NCBI GenBank assembly: GCA_018398765.1
Contig: JAHBMJ010003202.1
Coordinates: forward strand, 1-30,000
Origin: Chromera velia
Taxonomy: Eukaryota; Sar; Chromeraceae
Length of the DNA: 30,000 bases
Direction of reading: 5' to 3'
The notes beneath the pieces are model-generated. The model was given only the letters and a program-made list of their open reading frames with translations. It was not told the DNA's origin and searched no databases. Positions 1,080 through 25,279 of the stretch are shown piece by piece (position 1 is the stretch's first letter; each line of letters begins with the position of its first letter). The position numbers and the translations under genes are program-made.

Positions 1080-2207
1080 ATCCTCCTTCTTCCTCACCTG
1101 CATCTGTTCGGACCCTCGTCCTTCCTTCCTGGCTTATCTGATTTAGGGGGGGGGGCTTTTCTAACTGAAACGCGGACAGGCAGAGAGACAGACAGGCAGA
1201 CAAAAAGGCAGGCAGGCAGGCAGGCAGGCAGGCAGAGGAACAGAAAGAAAAACAAAATGCCTTTATTATCTCTCCCCCCAGTGCAGTCGACCAGTTGCTT
1301 CGTCCGGTCTCTTCACCTGCGGAAGTTGTCCGTTTCTTTTATGCTCCAAGAATGCACGTGATCGTGCCTGTGCCCACGGTAACGTGAAAGCGCTCGAGTG
1401 TTCTTCTTGTTGACTGCATTGAACTTGCCCCTGCATATTCTCTCTGTGCTGGATGCTGCACTGAGTGCAGGTGATCGTGCCGATGTCCACCGAGGGAGTC
1501 AACGTGGAGAGACCCCACACGGTGTTTGGGTATGACGACGCGCCGCACGGTCGGTACAGGGGGGGGGGCGCTCTGCGTAGGCGTCTTCACGGCTGAAGGT
1601 CACATCCCTTGAATGTGCAGATACACTTTGTCTGGCCGACACCCTCAGTAGATCAGCGCGCACGCTCTCCTTTGTACCTCGCTCCTTCCATCCAATGCTT
1701 TCTGCTCCTGTGACGCTTCTTTCTACACACATAAACACACGCACACACATGCATAGTCGCACGCACGCACCACGGATGATGCAAGGATCTCAATCGAGAC
1801 CGGTCTTAGTTTACCCACACTCTTGGCTGTTTGAGTTGTGCAGGCCATGCTGAAATGACCTTTGACTGCGAGGTTCCGATTGAGAACGTCCTGCTGGGAC
1901 CTGGGAGAGGATTCGAAATTGCACAGGGGAGGCTGGGGGGGGGCAGGCTGCATCACTGTCTGCGTCTTCTTGGGGCAGCTGAGCGTTCGATGCGTCTGAT
2001 GGCAAGAAGGGCGTTTGACCGGACGGCTTTCGGGGGTCAACTGTCCAGCAACGCCGCGTTCCGAGAGCGACTGGCGAGGTGCAGGGTGCAACTGGACTCC
2101 GCCAAGTGAGTGCTTGAGGGAGGGAGTCAGTGGCCGGGGGCGTGTGAGTGACGTGCCGTCGCATGTCTGCAGTCTGCTCTCTCACATTGCGACATGCTGT
2201 GTTCGTT

Positions 2208-2244
<37 letters not shown>

Positions 2245-3168
2245 GGGTGGGGAGCGATCTCAAGAGGACTATCTGGGGCGGTTCTGTAGAGTGGAGTGCG
2301 AATGGACTGGGCCGGGGCCGAGCCAATATCGATTGCAAGCGTTGTATTGCATTGCATTGTACTGCGTTGTGCAGATGGGCCTGCTACCACGCGGCCGATC
2401 TGATGGATAAGGTAAGCGAGGGCAAGGTGCCAGCCCGAAAACTACACTCAGCCATCGCCAAGGCAAAAGTCCAGACTCCGGAAGTGGCCGGGATGGTCAT
2501 CGACGAGGCCATCCAGTTGTTTGGGGCAGCGGGTGTGTCGGATGTCACCCCGCTTGCTTACCTCTGGGCTCAGGTCGGTTTCTGTTTTTGTATGCGTATG
2601 TTCGTTGTAACGGTGGACTTTTGCTTTCTGTATCTTATTTCTTTTGTTCAATCCCGGTTGGGCTGGATGAGCTTTGCCCTGCCCCCCGTCCTGCATTTCT
2701 AGTGGGTGTCTCTGTATGCCGATATGAATGCATATGCAACGGGAAAGGGACAAGAGAAAGGATTCCCTTGCCTTCTCGAGCCTCTCTGTCGCTGGGTACG
2801 ATTTAAGTGCGGTTCTTCGTCTCCTTCTTCTTCTTCTTCTTCTTCATCATTTCCGTTGTGCTGTGGAGATAAAATGAGACGAGACCCAACGGACGTGTGT
2901 CCGATCAAACTAGACAACGGAAGCAACGTCCCCCTGTATGGTCCCTCCTTTCTTTTCTCTCTCTGTGTGTGTATCTGTCTGTCTTCAGGCTCGCACCATC
3001 AGACTGGCAGACGGGCCCGATGCCGCCCACCTGCGCACTGTGGCGCGTCTGGAGCTCCTCAGCCAGGAGGAGAAGCAGAAGTCTGTCTTTGTCAATGAGA
3101 AGAGCGGCGGTGAGAAACAGCTCCTGAAGAGTTCTCGCTCGTTTGCCGCGCTCACTGCAAAAATGTGA
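420..3168 (+). CDS. Acyl-CoA dehydrogenase, ACAD10/ACAD11/IBR3-like (3' part)
   Basis: Exons 420-519, 751-868, 1471-1549, 1844-2105, 2375-2573 and 2989-3168 join in phase and give about 311 residues; the 5' part is outside the window. Family motifs appear in order: GRKWYISGAMDPR, VIVPMSTEGV, VFGYDDAPHG, QGRLGGGRLHHCLRLLG, AIQLFGAAGVS and IRLADGPDAAH. These are typical of the ACAD10/ACAD11/plant IBR3 branch of FAD-dependent acyl-CoA dehydrogenases, which introduce the alpha-beta double bond in fatty acyl-CoAs. The last motif sits where this branch carries its conserved DGPDEVH segment. An N-terminal kinase-like domain, present in some members, cannot be judged. Two oddities: a Lys/Glu/Gly-rich insertion coded by a GA-rich tract at about 789-850, and a C-terminus of AKM, which resembles a variant PTS1 peroxisomal signal. 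The stop is TGA at 3166. Family assignment is firm; substrate and compartment are inferred. Confidence 0.93.
1038..1236. repeat. (CT)n and (GGCA)n arrays in an ACAD intron
   Basis: A CT tract at about 1038-1079 and a clean GGCA tetranucleotide array at about 1207-1235 lie in the intron 869-1470. They are simple-sequence expansions with no coding potential. Confidence 0.85.
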
Positions 3169-11645: not shown

Positions 11646-13155
11646 TTAAGGCAAAACGAGAGAAATGCAAGCAAAATGGAGGAAGATCCAGATAGAGATA
11701 GAAGAAAGACCTGCAAGTGTAATCTGAGAGGCTGCAGATGTTTCAGAGCCTCTCAGTCTGTTTTGCTCTTCCCCGTTCGTCCCTTTTTCTTCCTCGGACT
11801 CTGTCTCTCCCCCCACTGCACAATCTGTACATCCCTCCGAGTCTGTATTGCCGTCTCCACTGATAGGATCACTGCCGGGGTCCGAACTTTCTGCAGCGGG
11901 CTCCTCGACCCTCAACTCGGGGTCCCAGGCAACATTGGGGGTGGCCTCTGGCCTCACTGCATCAAAACAGAAGAGCAGCCACTCTGCATTGGAGTATTTA
12001 TTCTTGTACATATTCCTTGTTCTCTTCACGTCCGATCCTCTTGGCAGAGTGTCCGGGAGGTCCTCGAATCTCTGCAGGTTCACGTTGGCACCGTTTAACT
12101 CAGCGAGGTCAAAGTCAAACAACACACGCGTGCCGTCTCCTGACACGTACGTCACTCGTGTCTCTGTGCCCTCGTTGACCGATTGCTCTCTCTCGATCGT
12201 CAGGGAGTTCTCCTTCGCTCTTGAAAACATATGTGCAGACACGCACAGTTGAGCGCAACTTTCGGATGAGGGTCCTAAGTGGGAGCCGCTCTTTGAGGAA
12301 ATGGGATCGGTGACCGGCATATTCGAATTGTTGAACCATGTCAGATCAACGTCAATCTTCACGTCGCTGGGCCGCAGAGTGTGGCCCTGCACGGACGCCC
12401 ATCCGTCTGCCACACTAGCTCTGAACTTGAAGACATCGTCCTGAGTGTTGGCCTCGCAGGAGTGGACGTCGAATTCCTCCTCTGTCCCTGAGGCGGGCAC
12501 AGTGGTCTTTGTACAGGAGAATGGATCCCATTTACGTGCACCAGAGAAATAGGTACTGTACCTGAGATTGTACCACCCAGTGATGGTGTCGTTGGACCCG
12601 GGTTGAAACCCTGCCTCCGCATTTCCGTCACAGTACTCGAACACGTAGTCGAACGCCAGCAGGGTGGTGAGGGAACTTCTCTCGATATTGCGCTCCGTAG
12701 CTGTGCTCTGCTCTGCCTCGTCTCCGTCCGTCTTCTCGACAGAGGATTCAGAGCGGCTGTATCCCATCCAAATGTCCGCAGTGCCGAAATTCAAGAGGAA
12801 AAACCGGTAAGTGCTCATACCCATGAACGTCGAGTCTCTACGTTGACTCCCTGAAGGCACATTCATCCACATTCCAGCGCGAATGAACTTGGATGGCGGT
12901 CTCACTAGCACCCTAAGGATTCGAATCAGACTAGACTGGCTGTCTTACTCGGAAAGGAAGAGAAGGAATTGACTGACCTTCGTCAGTGATTTTTCGGACC
13001 GCCTTTGCAGACACCCACCGGTTCTTCCTCTTGAAAGACCACTCTCTGTCGACGCCATGCACAGCTTTTGCCATTCGGGCTACTGAGACAGGCTGCCCGA
13101 CGCAGGCATGTAGCAGCACAACGGCAACGACTGCCGCATACTTCACCATCTGCAT
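11646..13155 (-). CDS. Secreted, probably GPI-anchored Cys-rich protein A
   Basis: Two exons, 13155-12978 and 12850-11646, separated by a 127-nt GTCAGT...TTCAG intron, encode 460 aa. The start MQMVKY gives a signal peptide with core YAAVVAVVLLHACVG; an upstream in-frame Met at 13242 would bury it, and a start at 13149 is also possible. The mature part begins with a basic stretch (VDREWSFKRKNRWVSAKAV). The central domain has shared motifs with protein B: RDSTFMGMS, SSLTTLLAFD, FEYCD, WDPFSCTKTTVP, FDVHSCEANTQDDVFKFRAS, DVKIDVDLTWFNN, SCAQLCVSAHMFS, SGDGTRVLFDFDLAELNGA and EWLLFCFDAVRP. At least seven cysteines are conserved between the two. The tail is acidic and Ser/Gly-rich and ends in a hydrophobic segment (SISIWIFLHFACISLVLP) with no cytoplasmic tail, the layout of a GPI signal. 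I do not recognise the family. Confidence 0.85.
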
Positions 13156-15667: not shown

Positions 15668-16818
15668 TTATGACCCAGAAAACATGTCATCCTCGCACTC
15701 GCCTTCATCTCCATAGTCTTCATCTCCCCCCTCCTCCCCCTCGCCTCCAAAACCAAAATCCTCCTCCCCTCCGCACATGTCCCCCTCATCACCACCATCG
15801 TTCGCCAAGGCATCCTTCATGTGCTCGTAGTCCATGCAGAGGTCGCTCCCGTTCGTCACACGCTCGGGCAACTCCCACTCCTCAGAAAAGCCGTACTGCT
15901 CAGTCAGCTGCAAACAAACATCGAAGGTGTCGATCGATATCAGTACGCGGACATGGACTGAAAGTCAGCCTGTCTTCGACCGATAGAAATCGTACAGTAG
16001 TCCACACGCAAGCAAGCGTCTTTGTGTGTCGAATGGCCGCCCCCCTCGAGGGCATCTGTCCTCGTCAGCTAGGAAGGATCTTTCCGAGTTTCGATCTTTT
16101 CCTGCTGTTTCAAAAATTTCCCGCTGCGTGCCGGCCCCCTTCCCCCCAACCTCTCAATTGCATCGTTGTTATCCTCCCCCGATACCTCCTTCCGATCTTA
16201 TGGACCGGCTCTTTCCATTAACTTGTGATCAGTGAGTCAATCATCCCTCTTTTCTGTTCCTCCTTACCTGCTTGCACTTTTCCTCGTCCTCCATCACGCC
16301 CTCGGTGATCTTTTTGACGACGGCGAAGGCAGCTGTGAGCATGTGCACCAGGGCGGCGGGGCCTCCCTTCTCTCCTCCCGCAAGGGTCATGTCGGGGTGG
16401 GGGACGCCCAGAGTCTGCAGACAGACAGACACAGGGAGACAGACAAGGAGGGACGAAGACGAAGGACCAGTTTCCTCAATGTCGAAATGCAAACAGACAA
16501 ACAGAGATCAATCAGCGAGAAGAGAGTCGGGGGGTCTCGGAAGACAAACGATCGATGCATGCAGGGCGTGAGTGAGTGAGTGAGTGAGGGAGTGAGTGAG
16601 TGAGTGAGCGAGCAAGTGAGTGAGTGAGTGAATGAGTGAGTGAGTGAGTACGTCAGCGTGGCGAGAGAACAAAGAGCGGGCAAGCGGCTGGAGGCCTCAT
16701 CTGCTTCCTTGCTGCGTTCGTGTCGCCGTCCGGCCGGCCTGCAGTTCCCCTCTTCTCCTCTCATAGCACGGTGAGATTCAGTTCTCCCACTTCGCTTGCG
16801 TGGAGAATGCTTTTATGC

Positions 16819-16875
<57 letters not shown>

Positions 16876-19181
16876 AGGTAGGATTGTGCTCAAGTGTGTC
16901 TGAAGCCCATTCCTTGAAGAGTCAAAGCTGCATGCCTGAATTGACTCCCTCACTCACCTTTTTGCCCTTCGTGTAGTTCTCCCTCTTCAGGCCGTCCATC
17001 CGTCTGCCGTAGGAGACAGAGGCCAGCAGGGAGGGGGCTTTCTCCTGCAGTCACTCACTCACTCACCCATGCATTCAGAAAGAGTGCGTGGTGTAGAACT
17101 GGAAGAAGAAAAGATGGTCAGAATGAAAACAAAAGGAAGGAAGGAAGAAAAAAGGTACAACAGGGAGACATTGGGAGAGGGGATAAAAAGAAGGAAGAAA
17201 GGAATTGAGCAAGGAGCCAAAGGTAGGAACTGTCTCTTCAGTTGAACGTTCAACTGACTGACCAGAGTGAAGTCATACTCAGGCCAGTCGAAGATCACCT
17301 TCTTGCGGTCGGAGAGGAAGCCGAAGTGCATACGGGGGTAGGGGACCAGGTGGGAGTTCACAGAACGGAGAGAGGAGGGAGAGCTGACGATGTTCGCAAG
17401 AGCCGGCAAGCACCTGCATGCACTCGAACAAGTCAGCAAACAGAAAATGTTCTCGTCTGTTTTGTTTCACATTTCATGTCTTTCTGTCTGAAAGAGAATT
17501 GGCAAATTAGAAACACGGGAAGGCAACAAGACGGGGGGCTGCAGGGAGGGAGATGACGCCGTTCTTCCCTTCCTACCTCCACCCATCGCCGGACAAGCAG
17601 AAAGAAAGAGAAAGTACCGGCGGAGAAATTCAGAACAGCGAAAGAATATTATTTCATCCGACAAGAAGTGAAGACCATGTCTACATAGATACAGAGAAAA
17701 CAAAAGCCGGACGGCGTGTCCTTGCAGGCTGATAGCTAGGAATGGGTTGACTTGCCCGGCGCTTCATCTGTCCTGCCGAATCGCAAAAAAGAAAATGATT
17801 CATTCATTCATTCATTCATTCATTCATTCAGATTGTGTCACGAGGCCCCACCTTGAGAGGATCCAAATATCTGTGTAGGTCTTTCTCCGGATTCGTAACA
17901 CCAAGTGAAGTCACTTAACTATCTGCCTGCCTGCCTGCCTGCCTGCCTGACTGACTGATTGACTGACTCTGCCTTCTGTGAGTCCAGGACGAAAAAGCAG
18001 AAGTCGCAGTTCTCGATCAGGTCGCACATCGCAGGGGCGGCCTTGTACCATTCATTCGCGTCCTTAGGCAGGATCACGCAGACAACCTGCAGGTGGGTAG
18101 GTAGGTAGGTAGGTAGGTAGGTAGAATCGAGTGAAGAACACAAATCATGCAACGAAGATTGGTGCGTGCGTGTGCATCCTAATCCAGTGATCTACAGGTC
18201 TTCCTCTCCTGCGCAGTTTCCTCTCAAGCCCTCTCTCATGACTTGTCCATCTGTGTGTCTTAACGAAGATGAAGGCACAAACACACACGTCCACACACCC
18301 ACCATAGGCTCGCAGCAGGCCTCGTATCGTGCGTTGTACATCACCTCCATGTTGGCGATCATGCCAGACGAAGTGGTGTCGAGGATGTAAAGTCGTTCGA
18401 TGCTCTCGAGAGACTCCACGCTCATGGGCATCTCGGATCCCTTCTTGTACTCTACACCAGACACGCCGCCCAGCTCGGACCCCCACTCCTCTCCCTTGGA
18501 GCCGATGCCGACCTGGAGACGCGGAAACAAACAAGGGAGAAAGGGGAGGATCGAGGGAATGCATCACAAAGGCTATCATCGGCACGACAGGCAGAAACCA
18601 AAAGAAGCAGATCAGCATGTGTCTCCAGACTTGAGGGGACAGAACAGGGTGGGTAAGTTAAGACATGCAGGAGAAGGGGAGTGTGCGAGAGTTTGGCTGT
18701 GGGTGAAAGGAACGCAATGGCATGCCGGGAGGGCTGGATGGAGTCTTGCAGACAGGAGGAAGAGAGAAGGGGTCGCGGCCAGAATGGCACAGTACTGATT
18801 CGCATGGTGCTTTGGTGGTGAAGCAGCAGAAAGTATGTTCAGGCTTTTCAATACTTTCCTCTCTCCCGCGGAACAATGACATGTATTTGTGTCTAGGCTG
18901 ACGCACGCACAATCATTTTTGGCCTGGGTGGGTAGAAGACCGCGAGTTTTGGGTCTGCAGGGACAGAGGATATGCACAGCAGTTAGGAGACAATGTTACA
19001 TTGATGCAAAAACACAAATATACATGCACACATACGCATGGTTGTGTGCAGCATTTCAAGACTACGAGTTTGGTGTAAGGAGGAAACTCGGAAAGACAGG
19101 AAAGGAAGTGGGGTTCTAGGAGGGCAGGTTGAAGCAGAAAGGAAGGAAGAGTGTTGTGGGTTGGTGATAGGCGGAAAGCCA

Positions 19182-19220
<39 letters not shown>

Positions 19221-21573
19221 TCTCCCCATGCATACCCACACAAGCCAGCCCGCCAGCCACAGAAAAAGAAACCAAACAAAGCTCTAAGGTTCCTTGAAGA
19301 GATAGATGCACCGATCGATCGAACACTCTTCGTCGGCGTGGGTGTAGGCACAAAAACATTACCACACAACGAGGTGCTTTGCCTGCTTGGTTGCCTGTCC
19401 GAGGACCTTGAATCACCTTGGTTGAACAACCTAGCTATGCAGCCGACCGACCGACCGGGGAATGGCACGTTGAATCCGGGCTTGAACTTCTTCATTCCCT
19501 TCTCGCCTGCGCTCTCGAGGAGAGTCGGGAACGTGTCGTATCCTGCAGGCCATGCAGAGAGAGGGGGGGGGGTTCTTTCGTTTCTATTCCAAGCATCGGG
19601 TGCTCTCTTCTGCCTCTAGAGAGCTGTAGGTGCTTCTTCCCTTTTTTTGTCTCGGCCTCTCTGTGTGTATCTATCTGTACATGTATGTCCCTTCTTCCTT
19701 CCACTCTCTCGACTCATCCCCCCCGCTTCTGCATGCAATGACCCAGAGAGCACTCTGCTCTGCACTGCAGCGTGGCACAAATCTATACACACAGAAATCG
19801 TACTCTCAATGCACTCAACGACTTATCTGTCTGTTTCCATCTTCTGTGTGTTGACATCAATGAAATTTTCTGCGCATCGAGCACCGGCTGAGGTACCCAC
19901 CTACCTGCAGAGATCCAATCCTCCTCTGCGCCCTCCCCAATAGTCCAGTGGCAGAACGCCCGCATGTCATACATGGACTTGGCGGCCTTGACGTACTTGA
20001 AGATCTTGTTATAGGTCTGCACACGCACGCACAGCTCATGTGGTCAGCGGAAAGGAAAGGAGAGACCCGAGAATGGAAGACAAACAAAAGCACAAATGGT
20101 AGCTTTCTTACAGATGACACACCGATCGATGAATCCTTCCTCATCTCAATCCATGAATCCGTACTTTGAACACCGTACGGCCTCAAGCCTTCACACGATG
20201 AGATACAGCACAGTGGAAGTGATTAGACTCGACCGACACACACGGCCAGTAAATCCCTCTCTGTCCCTTCTTTATTTACCCTCCCTCTACGCAGCCCCAG
20301 CCCCTGTCCGTTTTCTCTCTTTGTCCGTAAGCTTCACTGTGCGGGCGTGTGTGTGTGTGTGTGTGTGCGTGTACGTTCTGACCTCTCAAGAAATGCCTTT
20401 CGACTGAGCTTGCATATCTGATGCATCGTCTGCTGGTCTCTGTCTGTCTGTCTGTCTGTCTGTCTGTGTGTTTGTCTGTCTGTCTGTCTGTCTGTCTGAC
20501 CTTCTTTCCGTCAGGGAAGAAGCAGATGGGGGCGTCTCTCTTGACGATCTTCTGGACTATCTGCTTGCGGCCCTCGGGATTTCCGAACCTGAGCAAGCGG
20601 GAATTAATTCAGAAAGAATTCAAAGTACAAGAAAGCGAGGAATTAAGAGCGTGCAGGCGGGTAGAAATGAGTTTTGTTGAAACAGAGAGGATTCAGCAAT
20701 AGTGTCAGTACCTTACTTTCTGCCTTTCTCCATTCTCAAATGCAACATATGCCCCCGCTTCCAACAGACCTTCACTCACTGACTGACTGACTGACTGACA
20801 GACTGACCAGAAGAGGCGTTCCACGAAAGCGATCTTGACTTCCTTGGGGATGCAGCACATCTTCGCGAGGAGATACAGGACGGAAGGAGAAGGCCCAACC
20901 TGCATGCGCACAGCAGCAGACAGATAGAACCACGTTAGGACACGGAAATGCACCCGCGCGAGTCTAAAATGTACGCAGAGTCATATACACAACAAAGAAG
21001 TACACATACATGGGCTCTCACCATCAAGTACGCACGTACACTTTGACTGGCAGAAGGGCGTACTGCATGCATGGCATGAAATTTCTTCCTGAGGATCGTG
21101 AAACTGAAAGAAGACTTCGCCCAAATAGGTGGACAGCGACCTCATGAACTTATGAGAGTGCAGGTCAGTTTAGATCATGGCAATGTTGTGTTGACTGGAG
21201 AGGGCATTATGAGCTTGTCATGGATCAATTGAGAGAATGAATCCACAGCACAAAAAAGAAACTATGTGGCAGCATGGATCAATTGAGAGAATCCAAAGCA
21301 CAAAACAGAAACTATGTGGCAGCATGGATCAATTGAGAGAATCCAAAGCACAAAACAGAAACTATGTGGCAGCTGGGCTCTCATCAAAATTTCCAGTTGG
21401 ATGAGCCTGTACCTTCTCTCGCTGTCTGCCCGAACAAAGGGCATCTCACCAACAAAAGAAGAACTCACCATGGCGCTGTCTGAGTTGGCGTGAGGTGTGA
21501 CGATGATGTAGGTCAACTTGTCGGGGCTGATGCGCTGGACAAGTCTGCACGCGCAAGCAGATCCAGAGGATCC

Positions 21574-21612
<39 letters not shown>

Positions 21613-22778
21613 GGGCATGTAATTGTACAAGGACAGCATATGCACACGCACAGGAACGGAGCCCCGTTTTTCTGCTCGGTCTCCGCTGAATGTTTCCTCT
21701 CAGCCAGGTCTGTCGTGAATGTCAGTGAGTGCGTGAGTGAACGAGTGAGTGAACACGAAAGCAAATGAGTGGATGAAGACGAAACACGGTGTCTTGGATT
21801 CTTTCATTTTGAAACATCCGTTGTTCATCAATTCCTTCTTTCGTTTGGTCTCCCCCCCAGGAGTGGATTGACAGTCATGCGGGTCGGTTTCACGTTCAAT
21901 TCTCCAACTTCAAAGGGAACACGCACATGCAGACAGTCACTGTCTTTCTTCAAAGTGTCTTGGGATTTTGCCTCTCTCTTTCTCTGTACATGTACATCTG
22001 TGCGTATGTTGTTGACTGCTCCTTACCCGGGAGGCTCGCCCCAGATGGGGATTTCCTGCAGTCAATCGATCAGCAACAGACACTCACACTTCCACGTGCG
22101 CATGCACAGACGTATATAGATGTACATGCATAGACCAGTAAGCATAGCACGAAAAAGAGGCCACAAATCGATCAGCCAGCGGCACCCAGACTGCTCCTGG
22201 ACCTGCGAAAGAAGTCACCATGTATACGGCCCTCTTCCTCTGGATGTCAAGAGGTCTACTAGCTTTCTTCTTTCTCTGTGGATGCACGTGCATGCGCACT
22301 TTCCGAAGAAGCCGAGACAAAGAGGGTGAGGAGTTTTCGGTGTTACTTCAAATGCTGCGAATTCGACGGAGAAAAGAGTGAAATCCGCGAAGAAAGAAAC
22401 CAAACAACACTACGACAGTACAAGGGTGCGAGTGCATTGGCAGTGGATTTGAGGTTGATGCACGCGAGGCTATCTTTCTCTCTCTTTCCAGGACGGACCT
22501 GCCAAGCGACCCCGGAGCAAACATCAGTGATGACTGCGATCTTCTCGGCCTTTTCGTGCCAGTTGGCGATGACGTCGTCCGGAATTTCGTTGAGAGGAGT
22601 GTCGACGGTAATCTTACCGGAAAGGTCAGTCACCTGCAGGCGAGGGAATTGAAATTGTGAGCCTCCCAAACCGGGCTTGGGGCGCTTTCTTCCTTCATGC
22701 TGCAGACGGACTTACTTTTGAAGTTCCTGGCCTGATGAAGAGAGGAAGACATTTGACGGAGTCATGCAAGGTCGCCAT
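15668..22778 (-). CDS. Tubulin-superfamily protein, apparently circularly permuted
   Basis: Fifteen exons on the minus strand: 22778-22716, 22633-22499, 22055-22027, 21544-21469, 20899-20808, 20588-20501, 20016-19905, 19542-19456, 18954-18911, 18512-18303, 18086-17968, 17413-17263, 17044-16958, 16414-16268, 15907-15668. They keep frame across all 14 introns and give 559 aa. Residues ~48-227 look like the tubulin C-terminal region: IAVITDVCSGVA (H9-like), KLTYIIVTPH (S8-like, 85-94), PSVLYLLAKM (H10-like), VKIAFVERLFW (S9-like, 122-132) and MYDMRAFCHWTIGEGAEE (H11/H12, 176-193; most conserved alpha-tubulin positions match). Residues ~240-382 look like the N-terminal half: MIVGIGSKGEEWG (S1/T1-like), ENCDFCFFVLDSQKA (S6/H7, cf. 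DNEA) and SSLRSVNSHLVPYPRMHF (H7-H8/S7). A novel region and an acidic tail follow. No GGGTGSG loop is found and the alpha-type H8 catalytic Glu is absent, so GTP hydrolysis is doubtful. Homology of the H11/H12 and S7 motifs is firm; the rest is aligned by eye. Confidence 0.8.
16569..16649. repeat. (GAGT)n array in an intron
   Basis: GAGT units with few interruptions lie in the intron between the last two exons of the tubulin-like gene. A mixed (TG)n(AG)n run lies further on at about 16822-16875. Confidence 0.9.
17797..18124. repeat. Three period-4 arrays around exon 11
   Basis: ATTC units lie at about 17797-17830, CTGC then CTGA units at about 17925-17966 and GGTA units at about 18093-18123. 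The second abuts the splice donor and the third abuts the acceptor of the tubulin-like gene's exon at 18086-17968. Confidence 0.85.
20441..20500. repeat. (TGTC)n array abutting a splice donor
   Basis: On the plus strand TGTC units run up to the exon edge at 20501. On the coding strand the intron therefore begins GTCAGACAGACAGACAGACA, so the donor is the first unit of the array. Confidence 0.9.
21220..21373. repeat. Three-copy ~50-bp tandem repeat in an intron
   Basis: Units start at 21220 (54 bp), 21274 (50 bp) and 21324 (50 bp), each beginning ATGGATCAATTGAGAGAATC or a close variant and ending ACTATGTGGCAGC. The last two are identical. The array lies in intron 4 of the tubulin-like gene. 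Confidence 0.95.
21573..21611. repeat. (GACA)n array in an intron
   Basis: Clean GACA/ACAG tetranucleotides lie in intron 3 of the tubulin-like gene, about 30 bp from the acceptor of exon 4. Confidence 0.9.
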
Positions 22779-23521
22779 CCTTGCAAGTCTGGTGTTTTCT
22801 TGTATAAAGACGTTCGAGCTCGGTCAGAAGATTCTCTTTCGGTCAATGTCTTGCGGCTGTGTTGTGCGATGAAGATAGCAAGAGCGGCACTTCTGAAGAC
22901 TGTCGACTTTCTCGGCTGATGGGAACTGATAGGCTTCTTGCAACGCTTCAGTTTGGAACACTTTTAAAACCCGGAGTGCGCACGTGTTGTCAAGAGCCGA
23001 TTTGGACGAGGGGCCGGTGTGCTCCGAATTAAGTCAATTAAGGCTGCACGCGGTGGATTGCCCTCTCCGCGAATGCATGCATGAATAACGGGCCCCATGC
23101 AGCGCGGGGAAAATTTTCACATCAACCAATTGCCAACGAAAGCGCGGTTTTTTTTCGAAAAGGTCGTCGGAACATCCGAGGAACACAGGCACGCGCGGCA
23201 GTGCCGGGGCCTTTGGGGCTGCGGGGAAACAACTGTTGCATGTTTACGACGTGCGTGTTTCACAGTTTCACGGCGCGCGCGTAGTTATGCCCGACTGTTG
23301 CATGCAATCCGTTGCTTGTCGAAAACGGTTGACGCTTATGCTGAAATTGACGTGACTGGAACCATATGCATGTAGCTTTATCAGGAAGGCAGGCGATCTC
23401 TGTTAAGCCAAAGTCATTGTCACTCGCTCTTAGCAGACCGAAGCAGAAGATCACACCTGAGAGAAGCATATATATACACACTCAACTGTTGCACGAGGAG
23501 AAACTTCGATTGATCGAGAGG
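22779..23521. promoter_or_regulatory. Divergent intergenic region between tubulin-like gene and gene B
   Basis: The two genes diverge from this 743-bp interval. It contains a GAATGCATGCATGAA site at about 23071, one copy of a local repeat at 23121-23272 and TATATATA at about 23469-23476, some 45 bp before the gene B ATG. A short first-exon 5' UTR for gene B would fit. Promoter roles are inferred. Confidence 0.35.
23121..23272 (+). repeat. Local direct repeat, copy 1
   Basis: This copy shares AGGAACACAG-CACGCGCGGC, AGTGCCGGGGCCTTTGGGG and GGGAAACAACTGTTG with 23766-23900, in the same orientation. It lies upstream of gene B; the second copy is inside the gene B intron. Confidence 0.85.
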
Positions 23522-25279
23522 ATGTTGCGAGGTGTTGCAGTGACCGCGGTACTCGTGCTGTTCAAGTCAGAGTCTGGGGTCGCAATGGAAGTCCAGAGAA
23601 TGCAGAAGCTGCCAGACTCAGTCGACAGGGAGTGGACGTTCCGGAAGAGAGACCGATGGGTGTCTGCAAAGGCTGTGCGCAGACTTACAGGAGAAGGTAC
23701 GTTGGCAAACAAACAAACGAACAAGCAAGCAAGCAAGCAAGCAGAGATGGCCAAGCCGACTGTGGCATCTACCAATAGCCAACAAAAGCGCGCTTTTTTC
23801 CAGAAAAGTAGGTCTGAACACCCGAGGAACACAGACACGCGCGGCAGTGCCGGGGCCTTTGGGGGGAAACAACTGTTGTTTACGACTTGTTTCTCACGGG
23901 TGTTCGGCTTCTTCCTCTTCCTCCTCGCCGCCTCCTCCTATGTATTCTCCTCATCTTCCTCCTTCTACTTCTTCCTCTTCCTTGCGTTTGTCTGGCACTT
24001 CCCAGATTCGATCATGCCAACGACCGTGCAGCCCTCCCTTTCTCTTCTCTTCATGCTCGGTGCAGGAAGCGTTCAACGGGACTCCACGTTCATGGGCATG
24101 AGCACCTTCCTCTCCTCTGCGGATGTATGGACCGGGTTCAACCACTTCGAAAGTTCCGTCGGCATGACAGACGAGAGCGGAGACGACGAGAACGACGAGA
24201 GCACAACCACCGTCTCCAACATCCAACGCTCCTCCCTCACCACCCTCCTTGCCTTCGACCACGTATTTGAGTACTGCGACGCCAACGCCCAGCCCGGATA
24301 CCAAGCCGAGTCCAACGACACCCTCACAGGCTGGTACAACCTCAGATACCGATGGCCTTCCTGGTCTCCCATTCCGTTGGGAGGGCGGAAGTGGGATCCA
24401 TTCTCCTGTACAAAGACCACTGTGCCCGGCTCAGGGACAGAGGAGGAATTCGACGTCCACTCCTGTGAGGCCAACACTCAGGACGATGTCTTCAAGTTCA
24501 GAGCTAGTGTGGCAGACGGGTTTGCGAAGATTCAAGGACACGAGTTGGAACCGAGCGACGTGAAGATTGACGTCGACTTGACATGGTTCAACAACCCGAA
24601 TATGCCCGCATCAAACCCTATCGAATCCGAAAGCAACTCCCACCTAGGCCCCTCTTCCCTCAGTTGCGCTCAACTGTGCGTGTCTGCACACATGTTTTCG
24701 AAAGCGAAGGAACGATCGGTTACAGTTGAGAAAGAAGAGTTGGTCAATGGAGGCACTGAGAGTCGGTACACCTATCTGTCAGGAGACGGCACGCGTGTGT
24801 TGTTTGATTTTGACCTCGCTGAGTTGAATGGTGCCAGCGTGAACCTGCAGAGATTTGACAGCCTTCCAGATTCCCTTCCGAGAAAGACAGAGATAGAAGC
24901 CGAACGCAGACGATACAAGAATTGGGCCGGTTTCACGAAAGCAGAGTGGTTGCTTTTCTGCTTCGATGCGGTGCGGCCTTCCAGCACGCCCAATGTGTCG
25001 TGGGATCCGGAACTGCGCGTCGTGGCTCCGTCGACTGATGCAGACGACGGGGGATGCGGCAGCGGGTCTGGATGCGATACTGATGGGGGCTCTGGCGACG
25101 CCGCAAGCGGCACGGACGGAGGATCCACTGACCCCCCATCAAGTGAAGAGGGAGAAGAGAACGAACCTGAGGGCAATCTGAGGGGACCTGAAAGCTCGGA
25201 TGGATTTCGCGTGAGGGGGGTTAGGGGTATACTCGGAGGGGCCCTGTTGGTCTCTCTTCTGTTGGTCCTTTTGTTTTAA
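23522..25279 (+). CDS. Secreted, probably GPI-anchored Cys-rich protein B
   Basis: Exons 23522-23696 and 24066-25279 encode 462 aa, almost the same length as protein A (460 aa). The intron (GTACGT...TGCAG, 369 nt) sits at the same codon as in A, after (D/G)EG. The N-terminus MLRGVAVTAVLVLFKSESGV is a short, somewhat weak signal peptide, followed by VDREWTFRKRDRWVSAKAV as in A. The central domain repeats every motif listed for A, including WDPFSCTKTTVP, FDVHSCEANTQDDVFKFRAS and LSCAQLCVSAHMFS. The tail is Gly/Asp/Ser-rich and ends GILGGALLVSLLLVLLF, a GPI-type or membrane tail with no cytoplasmic part. The unspliced frame stays open upstream and through the intron; I prefer splicing because protein A lacks that segment. 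Family not recognised. Confidence 0.85.
   Translation: MLRGVAVTAVLVLFKSESGVAMEVQRMQKLPDSVDREWTFRKRDRWVSAKAVRRLTGEGTLANKQTNKQASKQAEMAKPTVASTNSQQKRAFFQKSRSEHPRNTDTRGSAGAFGGKQLLFTTCFSRVFGFFLFLLAASSYVFSSSSSFYFFLFLAFVWHFPDSIMPTTVQPSLSLLFMLGAGSVQRDSTFMGMSTFLSSADVWTGFNHFESSVGMTDESGDDENDESTTTVSNIQRSSLTTLLAFDHVFEYCDANAQPGYQAESNDTLTGWYNLRYRWPSWSPIPLGGRKWDPFSCTKTTVPGSGTEEEFDVHSCEANTQDDVFKFRASVADGFAKIQGHELEPSDVKIDVDLTWFNNPNMPASNPIESESNSHLGPSSLSCAQLCVSAHMFSKAKERSVTVEKEELVNGGTESRYTYLSGDGTRVLFDFDLAELNGASVNLQRFDSLPDSLPRKTEIEAERRRYKNWAGFTKAEWLLFCFDAVRPSSTPNVSWDPELRVVAPSTDADDGGCGSGSGCDTDGGSGDAASGTDGGSTDPPSSEEGEENEPEGNLRGPESSDGFRVRGVRGILGGALLVSLLLVLLF
23766..23900 (+). repeat. Local direct repeat, copy 2 (intronic)
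   Basis: It lies inside the gene B intron, just after an (AAGC)n array at about 23724-23742, and matches the copy at 23121-23272 with small indels. One of the two probably arose by duplication or insertion. Confidence 0.85.

Follow-up and report, generated by a model that had tools for sequence, protein, structure and literature searches.

The minus strand of a 30,000-nucleotide window (the whole stretch of DNA analyzed, positions 1 to 30,000 of contig JAHBMJ010003202.1 in Chromera velia assembly GCA_018398765.1) contains a gene whose 559-amino-acid product is probably a fused, decayed alpha-beta tubulin-like protein, with two units in a row rather than one permuted unit. The first unit would correspond to an alpha-like C-terminal region, comprising H11/H12 with candidate intermediate-domain strands ahead of it; behind it, past a linker, would come a beta-like second unit with its elements in normal order, namely a reduced N-domain, H7-S7, H11/H12, and a tail rich in acidic residues. 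Ordinarily, alpha- and beta-tubulin are two distinct polypeptides, and tubulin architecture is generally regarded as permitting little change. The protein belongs to a small family in the C. velia genome.

Fifteen exons between positions 22778 and 15668 (Table 1) were spliced by hand, with the joins picked by eye, into one open frame of 559 codons followed by a stop. All 14 introns are GT-AG, and GC3 is 0.755 versus an intron GC content of 0.494. The single stop-free frame across 14 introns agrees with the first-pass annotation, which had also placed MYDMRAFCHWTIGEGAEE at residues 176 to 193 and LVPYPRMHF at residues 374 to 382, where both lie in the spliced protein. An in-frame stop is present 45 nucleotides upstream of the ATG, and an extra 5' exon may be spliced in at an AG near this ATG. 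A 17-nucleotide additional exon (17772-17756) was discarded because it broke the frame.

Table 1. Exons and tubulin-like segments of the 559-amino-acid gene, in transcript order (positions in the window)
Feature	Positions	Strand	Residues and content	Basis
Exons 1-5	22778-22716, 22633-22499, 22055-22027, 21544-21469, 20899-20808	minus		
Exons 6-10	20588-20501, 20016-19905, 19542-19456, 18954-18911, 18512-18303	minus		
Exons 11-15	18086-17968, 17413-17263, 17044-16958, 16414-16268, 15907-15668	minus		
Exons 2-6	20501..22633	minus	22-161; weak candidate H9-S8-H10-S9-S10 of unit 1	Register in forced global alignment
Exons 7-8	19456..20016	minus	~161-204, including MYDMRAFCHWTIGEGAEE; first H11/H12, alpha-tubulin-like	Profile, hhalign, class scores
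Exons 9-10	18303..18954	minus	Most of linker (225-240) and degenerate N-domain region with S1/T1 and T4 candidates	Linker in two paralogues
Exons 11-12	17263..18086	minus	~314-384, including LVPYPRMHF; S5-H6-S6-H7-S7	hhalign, pairwise tests in three paralogues
Exon 13	16958..17044	minus	SLLASVSYGRRMDG (407-420); conserved past S7, without clear tubulin counterpart	Three-copy alignment
Exons 14-15	15668..16414	minus	~460-518; second H11/H12, beta-tubulin-like, then acidic tail	Profile, class scores

The first-pass annotation had described a tubulin whose two halves occur in swapped order, as H11/H12 precedes S7. The order itself is confirmed, with H11/H12 at residues ~161 to 204 and S7 at 374 to 382 and the same arrangement in a paralogue, so that C-terminal elements do lie before N-terminal ones. 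A phmmer search of PDB with residues 1 to 527 returned 116 sequences, the best 60 of which were all alpha-tubulins (top E value, 0.0062), and its best alignment pairs residues 173 to 207 with tubulin 395 to 429 and residues 368 to 386 with tubulin 253 to 271, the reverse of the tubulin order; taken alone, the S7 stretch of this alignment is weak (i-Evalue, 290). A permutation is expected to leave one copy of each element, yet a second H11/H12, which the earlier annotation overlooked, follows S7 at residues 460 to 518, its normal place, and leans toward the other class, an arrangement that a tandem fusion with losses fits. Circular permutation, in which the C-terminal half of a single tubulin would have moved to the front and created new ends, was set aside as the first choice because of this second, beta-leaning copy, and we consider it unlikely. 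It would account for H11 preceding S7 in both the gene and its paralogue, for candidate H9-S10 elements in the expected register ahead of the first H11, and for S8-H10-S9 being unrecognizable past S7; however, the H11/H12 copy beyond S7 is the best match in the PDB profile search (residues 459 to 526 to beta-tubulin 370 to 439; whole-sequence E value, 0.0031), and the two copies differ in class leaning.

In the same PDB profile search, residues 145 to 217 matched alpha-tubulin ~367 to 440. Against class profiles that are thin (two alpha sequences, one of which ends at residue 407, one beta, one gamma, and three bacterial), the first H11/H12 scored 43.9 as alpha versus 28.8 as beta and the second scored 32.2 as beta versus 17.5 as alpha; the alpha-beta assignment is provisional because of the few class sequences, as is the conclusion that two tubulin-like units of different class appear to share one open frame. 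In the 559-amino-acid protein alone, the first copy has 16 of 40 residues identical to alpha-tubulin (z, 11.4), and the second has a z score of 5.9 to the reference beta-tubulin and 0.1 to alpha-tubulin. The second copy in the paralogue shares 16 of 31 residues with beta-tubulin (z, 12.0), while the class of its unit 1 is a near tie (alpha, 49, against 48 for one own beta); unit 1 in a more distant copy gives a weak class signal (z, 2.3). When the two C-terminal ends were compared directly with each other, no match signal appeared (11.9). The first H11/H12 resembles alpha-tubulin in being of the RAFxHWxxGEGxEE type; unlike alpha-tubulin, the protein has no recognizable GTPase domain before it, no N-domain having been found ahead of unit 1 in this gene, and the chain does not end there but continues into a second unit. 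That unit resembles beta-tubulin in carrying S5-H6-S6-H7-S7, H11/H12, and then an acidic tail in normal order, with D and E making up 23 of the final 60 residues, and it differs in that the N- and intermediate domains are shortened, the GGGTGSG and T7 motifs are absent, and an alpha-like segment stands in front. Complete N- and C-domains are thus not present in both units.

The regions between these segments are less readily placed. The H9-, S8-, H10-, and S9-like segments reported earlier hold only in that H9, S8, and S9 are registered in a forced global alignment; residues 40 to 160 did no better than shuffles by hhalign (62 of 200 as good) and gave weak pairwise scores. The reported S1-like segment was not recovered and a T4 element also lacked support, as 73 of 200 shuffles matched tubulin as well as residues 236 to 305, the N-domain candidate, did and pairwise scores were weak. 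Residues 383 to 445 were also not above shuffles by hhalign (145 of 200 as good). A weak pairwise match of residues 384 to 440 to alpha-tubulin 214 to 263 was observed out of place; shuffled sequences equalled it in 2 and in 6 of 300 cases. The distance from S7 to the second H11 match is ~76 profile positions, compared with ~110 in tubulin, and this spacing, with the candidate intermediate-domain strands in front, would suit a composite fold in which a unit 2 lacking S8-H10-S9 is completed by the front intermediate domain, giving partly permuted connectivity. This arrangement is likewise doubtful, since the front strands lack statistical support and precede an H11/H12 of their own.

The similarity of the protein to tubulin is short and borderline, and a low probability attaches to its being an unrelated protein with a chance or convergent likeness to short tubulin motifs. 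Consistent with such a likeness, neither PF00091 (Tubulin) nor PF03953 (Tubulin_C) matched residues 1 to 527 or three parts of the protein at an E value of ≤10, and no Pfam tubulin match was found for the 866-amino-acid paralogue, whereas the genome's own alpha-tubulin, used as a positive control, matched both domains. A four-tubulin HMM gave nonsignificant E values against three family copies (1.7, 26, and 38), aligning only short S7 and H11/H12 pieces, and NCBIfam gave no match for three members. Against chance, tubulins made up 59 of the best 60 of 146 rows in the PDB profile search, with borderline E values, and hhalign found both H11/H12 copies and S5-S7 within one protein; when the three segments were cut out singly, each exceeded its 200 shuffles and its own reversal. 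The strongest match is S5-H6-S6-H7-S7 (score, 57.5; probability, 95.6; 0 of 200 shuffles as good), followed by the first H11/H12 (36.8; 0 of 200) and the second (30.1, barely above the best shuffle of another segment at 29.6). In the full-length comparison, S5-S7 is the only confident match (94.6), the two H11/H12 copies having probabilities of 8.4 and 8.0 that rise to 42.0 to 57.5 and 18.4 to 87.0 when they are cut out. The motif HLVPFPRLHF in the distant paralogue also argues against chance. Kinship with tubulin, as first proposed, holds, as does the position of H11 ahead of S7, which recurs in a paralogue. Failure of either half to hit tubulin in a profile search, which the first-pass annotation had named as grounds for rejection, was the outcome in Pfam, but tubulin was hit when PDB was searched with a profile and when profiles were compared with each other. 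Homology at S7 and H11/H12 is present, though weak by HMM score alone. In viral contigs, 29 pattern matches included no relatives, and there was no alpha-tubulin pattern match.

Three relatives of the gene were found in the C. velia genome: a collinear gene of 25 exons encoding 866 amino acids, in which the entire order of elements is kept; a shortened copy interrupted by a stop codon; and a partial, more distantly related copy whose sequence enters a stretch of N before any second H11/H12. A genome search with the distant copy returned itself and three rows at E values of 0.138 to 0.544; an 819-amino-acid open frame given for three stretches in this search was contradicted by the frame list (318 amino acids) and was disregarded. 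The stop codon in the shortened relative and the joins picked by eye would be compatible with an erroneously merged model of two adjacent tubulin-derived genes or pseudogenes, an explanation that we regard as very improbable. The linker is recognizable in two paralogues and single exons span the join: exon 18 of the 866-amino-acid paralogue covers the linker together with the first part of unit 2, and a single 582-nucleotide exon of the distant paralogue runs from the H11 candidate via the linker into the N-domain region, although S7 lies in a later exon than the linker-spanning one in each copy. The open frame, the canonical introns, and selection on the protein also argue against a merged model. 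Between two copies, 38 of 114 fourfold sites are identical (0.275 expected), near saturation, yet 228 of 519 aligned residues (44%) are identical, indicating present or past selection on the protein. Of its 14 introns, the 559-amino-acid gene has only 2 at positions where the 866-amino-acid gene also has an intron in the same phase.

The N-terminus of the 866-amino-acid paralogue comprises ~330 amino acids; its two matches in PDB were at chance level (E values, 3.4 and 3.8), and a search of the window plus a further 10 kb revealed no comparable extension (best E value, 1.4). A leucine-rich repeat (LRR) reading of this region was rejected (2 motifs, with as many in 229 of 2,000 shuffles, and nothing in Pfam). 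An S4/T4 candidate at residues 271 to 331 of this paralogue exceeded 100 shuffles with a mixed profile, and with alpha alone 40 of 100 were as good.

GGGTGSG is the GTP-binding glycine loop T4 of tubulin, and GxxNxD is its T7 motif. GGGTGSG and G[AGQY]xNxD were absent from the three family copies checked, which suggests that GTP binding and hydrolysis have been lost and would make tubulin-like polymerization of the 559-amino-acid protein unlikely. The outer H11/H12 surface of tubulin and its acidic tail bind motors, microtubule-associated proteins, and tail-modifying enzymes. The protein is probably a nonpolymerizing tubulin mimic or adaptor; as a fixed mimic or adaptor, it would use this surface and its tail, or it would cap or decorate microtubules. 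More tentatively, and with less than even confidence, the family may represent natural covalent alpha-beta pseudo-heterodimers that have lost GTP binding and act as fixed mimics, the intermediate domain of one unit possibly completing the fold of the other. If so, a selected fused family without GTP motifs would be evidence that reuse of the tubulin surface does not require polymerization, and chromerids would gain a cytoskeletal part that merits comparison with the apical structures of parasitic relatives, C. velia probably being related to malaria parasites. The case also illustrates that tandem fusion with losses can mimic circular permutation.

Among literature titles and abstract openings, none dealt with a naturally occurring fusion of alpha- and beta-tubulin or with a tubulin of permuted order. 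PMC10056924 mentions a single partial alpha-tubulin/Sec1 fusion model, and its main text names Chromera 0 times. Trypanosomatid tubulin genes occur in tandem arrays, as PMC1621084 describes; those are adjacent genes, whereas here a single polypeptide is encoded. By analogy, side-by-side tubulin genes would be a plausible source of the fusion, although the route is speculation. For S5-S7 of the 559- and 866-amino-acid proteins, the top pairwise scores go to bacterial tubulins (L054 to L056, from Myxococcales and Polyangia metagenome-assembled genomes), which, unlike the C. velia proteins, are single-unit tubulins of ordinary length (432 to 441 amino acids).

The simplest reading of the tubulin-like gene in this Chromera velia window is a tandem, in which an alpha-like C-terminal region (unit 1) would be followed by a linker and then by a beta-like unit (unit 2) with normal element order, shortened domains, and an acidic tail. 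Spliced on the minus strand, the gene comprises 15 exons and 14 GT-AG introns that form a single frame of 559 amino acids, which bears out the 14 introns and one open frame of the first-pass annotation; the H11/H12 and S7 signatures likewise start where it had placed them, at residues 176 and 374 of the spliced protein.

Evidence of kinship with tubulin varied with the search used. Residues 1-527 of the protein, or three parts thereof, had no tubulin match in Pfam, where the organism's own alpha-tubulin, a positive control, matched both tubulin models. That alpha-tubulin itself had its highest scores with 7tnt and 7miz, both Toxoplasma entries. A hidden Markov model built from four tubulins gave E values of 1.7, 26, and 38 against three copies and picked out solely short S7 and H11/H12 pieces. 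A phmmer search of the PDB with residues 1-527 returned 116 sequences (top E value, 0.0062), the best 60 of which were all alpha-tubulins, and a profile built from the window protein and two paralogues returned 146 (top E value, 0.0031), with tubulins making up 59 of the best 60. The profile check proposed earlier was thus negative for Pfam and positive for the PDB.

The strongest stretch in the best profile matches was not the H11 reported before but positions 459-526, which aligned to beta-tubulin 370-439 and followed, in collinear order, a weak match to S7 (366-383 to 248-265); another group of matches paired 145-217 with alpha-tubulin at approximately 367-440. The protein thus has two H11/H12 regions. 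H11 does precede S7, as first claimed, and the five phmmer alignments displayed have this inverted order. The second H11/H12 sets the protein apart from a circularly permuted tubulin and contradicts that interpretation, unless the fold is a composite with partly permuted connectivity, which we consider improbable.

The two C-terminal ends leaned to different classes. For the first, the alpha score was 43.9 and the beta score 28.8; the second reached 17.5 with alpha, a value matched by 7/100 shuffles, and 32.2 with beta, matched by 0/100. With single sequences, unit 1 of the window protein favored alpha (z 11.4, 16/40 identities) over beta (z 7.2-8.5), and unit 2 favored three betas (z 4.3-5.9) over alpha (z 0.1). 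Unit 2 of the 866-aa paralogue matched a reference beta at z 12.0 (16/31 identities; alpha z 1.4), and its unit 1 was a near tie (alpha 49, one own beta 48). Values were modest for unit 2 of the truncated relative (beta z 2.6-4.6) and weak for unit 1 of the distant copy (z 2.3). Compared with each other, the two ends were not mutually detected.

Segments were also aligned by hhalign to the organism's own alpha-tubulin, to typed alpha-, beta-, and gamma-tubulins, and to three bacterial ones, seven tubulins in all. In the intact protein, probabilities were 94.6 for S5-S7 (314-384), 8.4 for the second H11/H12 (460-518), and 8.0 for the first (161-204); in excised segments they varied with the cut, from 18.4 to 87.0 for the second and from 42.0 to 57.5 for the first. 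Three segments exceeded their reversal and all 200 column shuffles: S5-S7 (57.5; shuffle maximum, 23.6), the unit 1 H11/H12 (36.8; 21.5), and the post-S7 segment with the second H11/H12 (30.1; 23.5), the last nearly equaled by a shuffle of a different segment at 29.6. Shuffles did as well for S1-T4 (73/200), H9-S10 of unit 1 (62/200), and the stretch directly after S7 (145/200), and the S1-like and H9-, S8-, H10-, and S9-like segments of the first-pass annotation are not upheld.

The protein resembles canonical tubulin in S7 and H11/H12, which qualify as homologous, and differs in failing the Pfam models and lacking the GTP motifs. Absence of GGGTGSG and the T7-type motif from all three copies tested suggests that GTP binding and ordinary polymerisation have been lost. 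The outer face (H11/H12) is retained, as is, in the window copy, the tail (23 acidic residues in the last 60). From these features and general tubulin biology, the protein may serve as an adaptor, a cap, or a fixed mimic of tubulin, a tentative proposal that is less likely than not. No natural alpha-beta tubulin fusion or permuted tubulin was among the matches listed in full-text literature that includes few subscription papers, which does not prove the absence of an earlier example.

The assembly searched (177.8 Mb, 4040 contigs, including the window contig, C3110) contains three relatives, of which the truncated one is likely a pseudogene. In the 866-aa paralogue, one exon covers both the linker and the beginning of unit 2, and in the distant copy a single 582-nt exon extends from the H11 candidate across the linker as far as the N-domain region. 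Each copy has its S7 in an exon further downstream. Readable sequence in the distant copy gives way to N ahead of any second H11/H12 position. Codon comparison shows that the tubulin-like protein is, or has been, under selection. Between the window gene and the 866-aa paralogue, identity was 0.582, 0.659, and 0.418 at codon positions 1, 2, and 3, with positions 1 and 2 above 3, and 38/114 fourfold sites were identical (expectation, 0.275), near saturation; GC3 was 0.755 versus an intron GC of 0.494. The paralogue carries approximately 330 additional N-terminal residues (1-331) with no Pfam match and no relevant PDB match; neither a leucine-rich repeat (LRR) nor a tubulin N-domain reading of them was established by Pfam, PDB, or further sequence tests.

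Coordinates of the tubulin-like gene, its relatives, and other features
Feature	Location	Strand	Exons	Remarks
Tubulin-like gene	window 22778-15668	-		
866-aa paralogue (L031+L033)	G000 C3702		25	collinear with window gene; 228/519 aligned residues identical
Truncated relative (L032)	G000 C1166:29500-34701			close to contig end; in-frame TAG in S7 exon
Distant copy	G000 C3136			HLVPFPRLHF at S7
Divergent tubulin (L003)	G000 C3737:21102-24749			GGGTGTA replaces GGGTGSG
Long open frame	window 11646-12944	-		
Long open frame	window 23351-25279	+		
Further frames	window ~1810-2700	+		include VLLGPGRGFEIAQGRLGGGR

The genome also encodes a divergent tubulin (L003) with 45% identity to its own alpha-tubulin across the first 214 residues, and tubulin-like genes with 47-49% identity to beta-tubulin (L054-L056) occur in MAGs labelled bacterial (Myxococcales, Polyangia). 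Within the window, the tubulin-like gene is flanked by a pair of long open frames from a single family, one on each side and on opposite strands, which have stretches such as CEANTQDDVFKFRASVADG in common. The further frames presumably resemble acyl-CoA dehydrogenase exons, as judged by eye.
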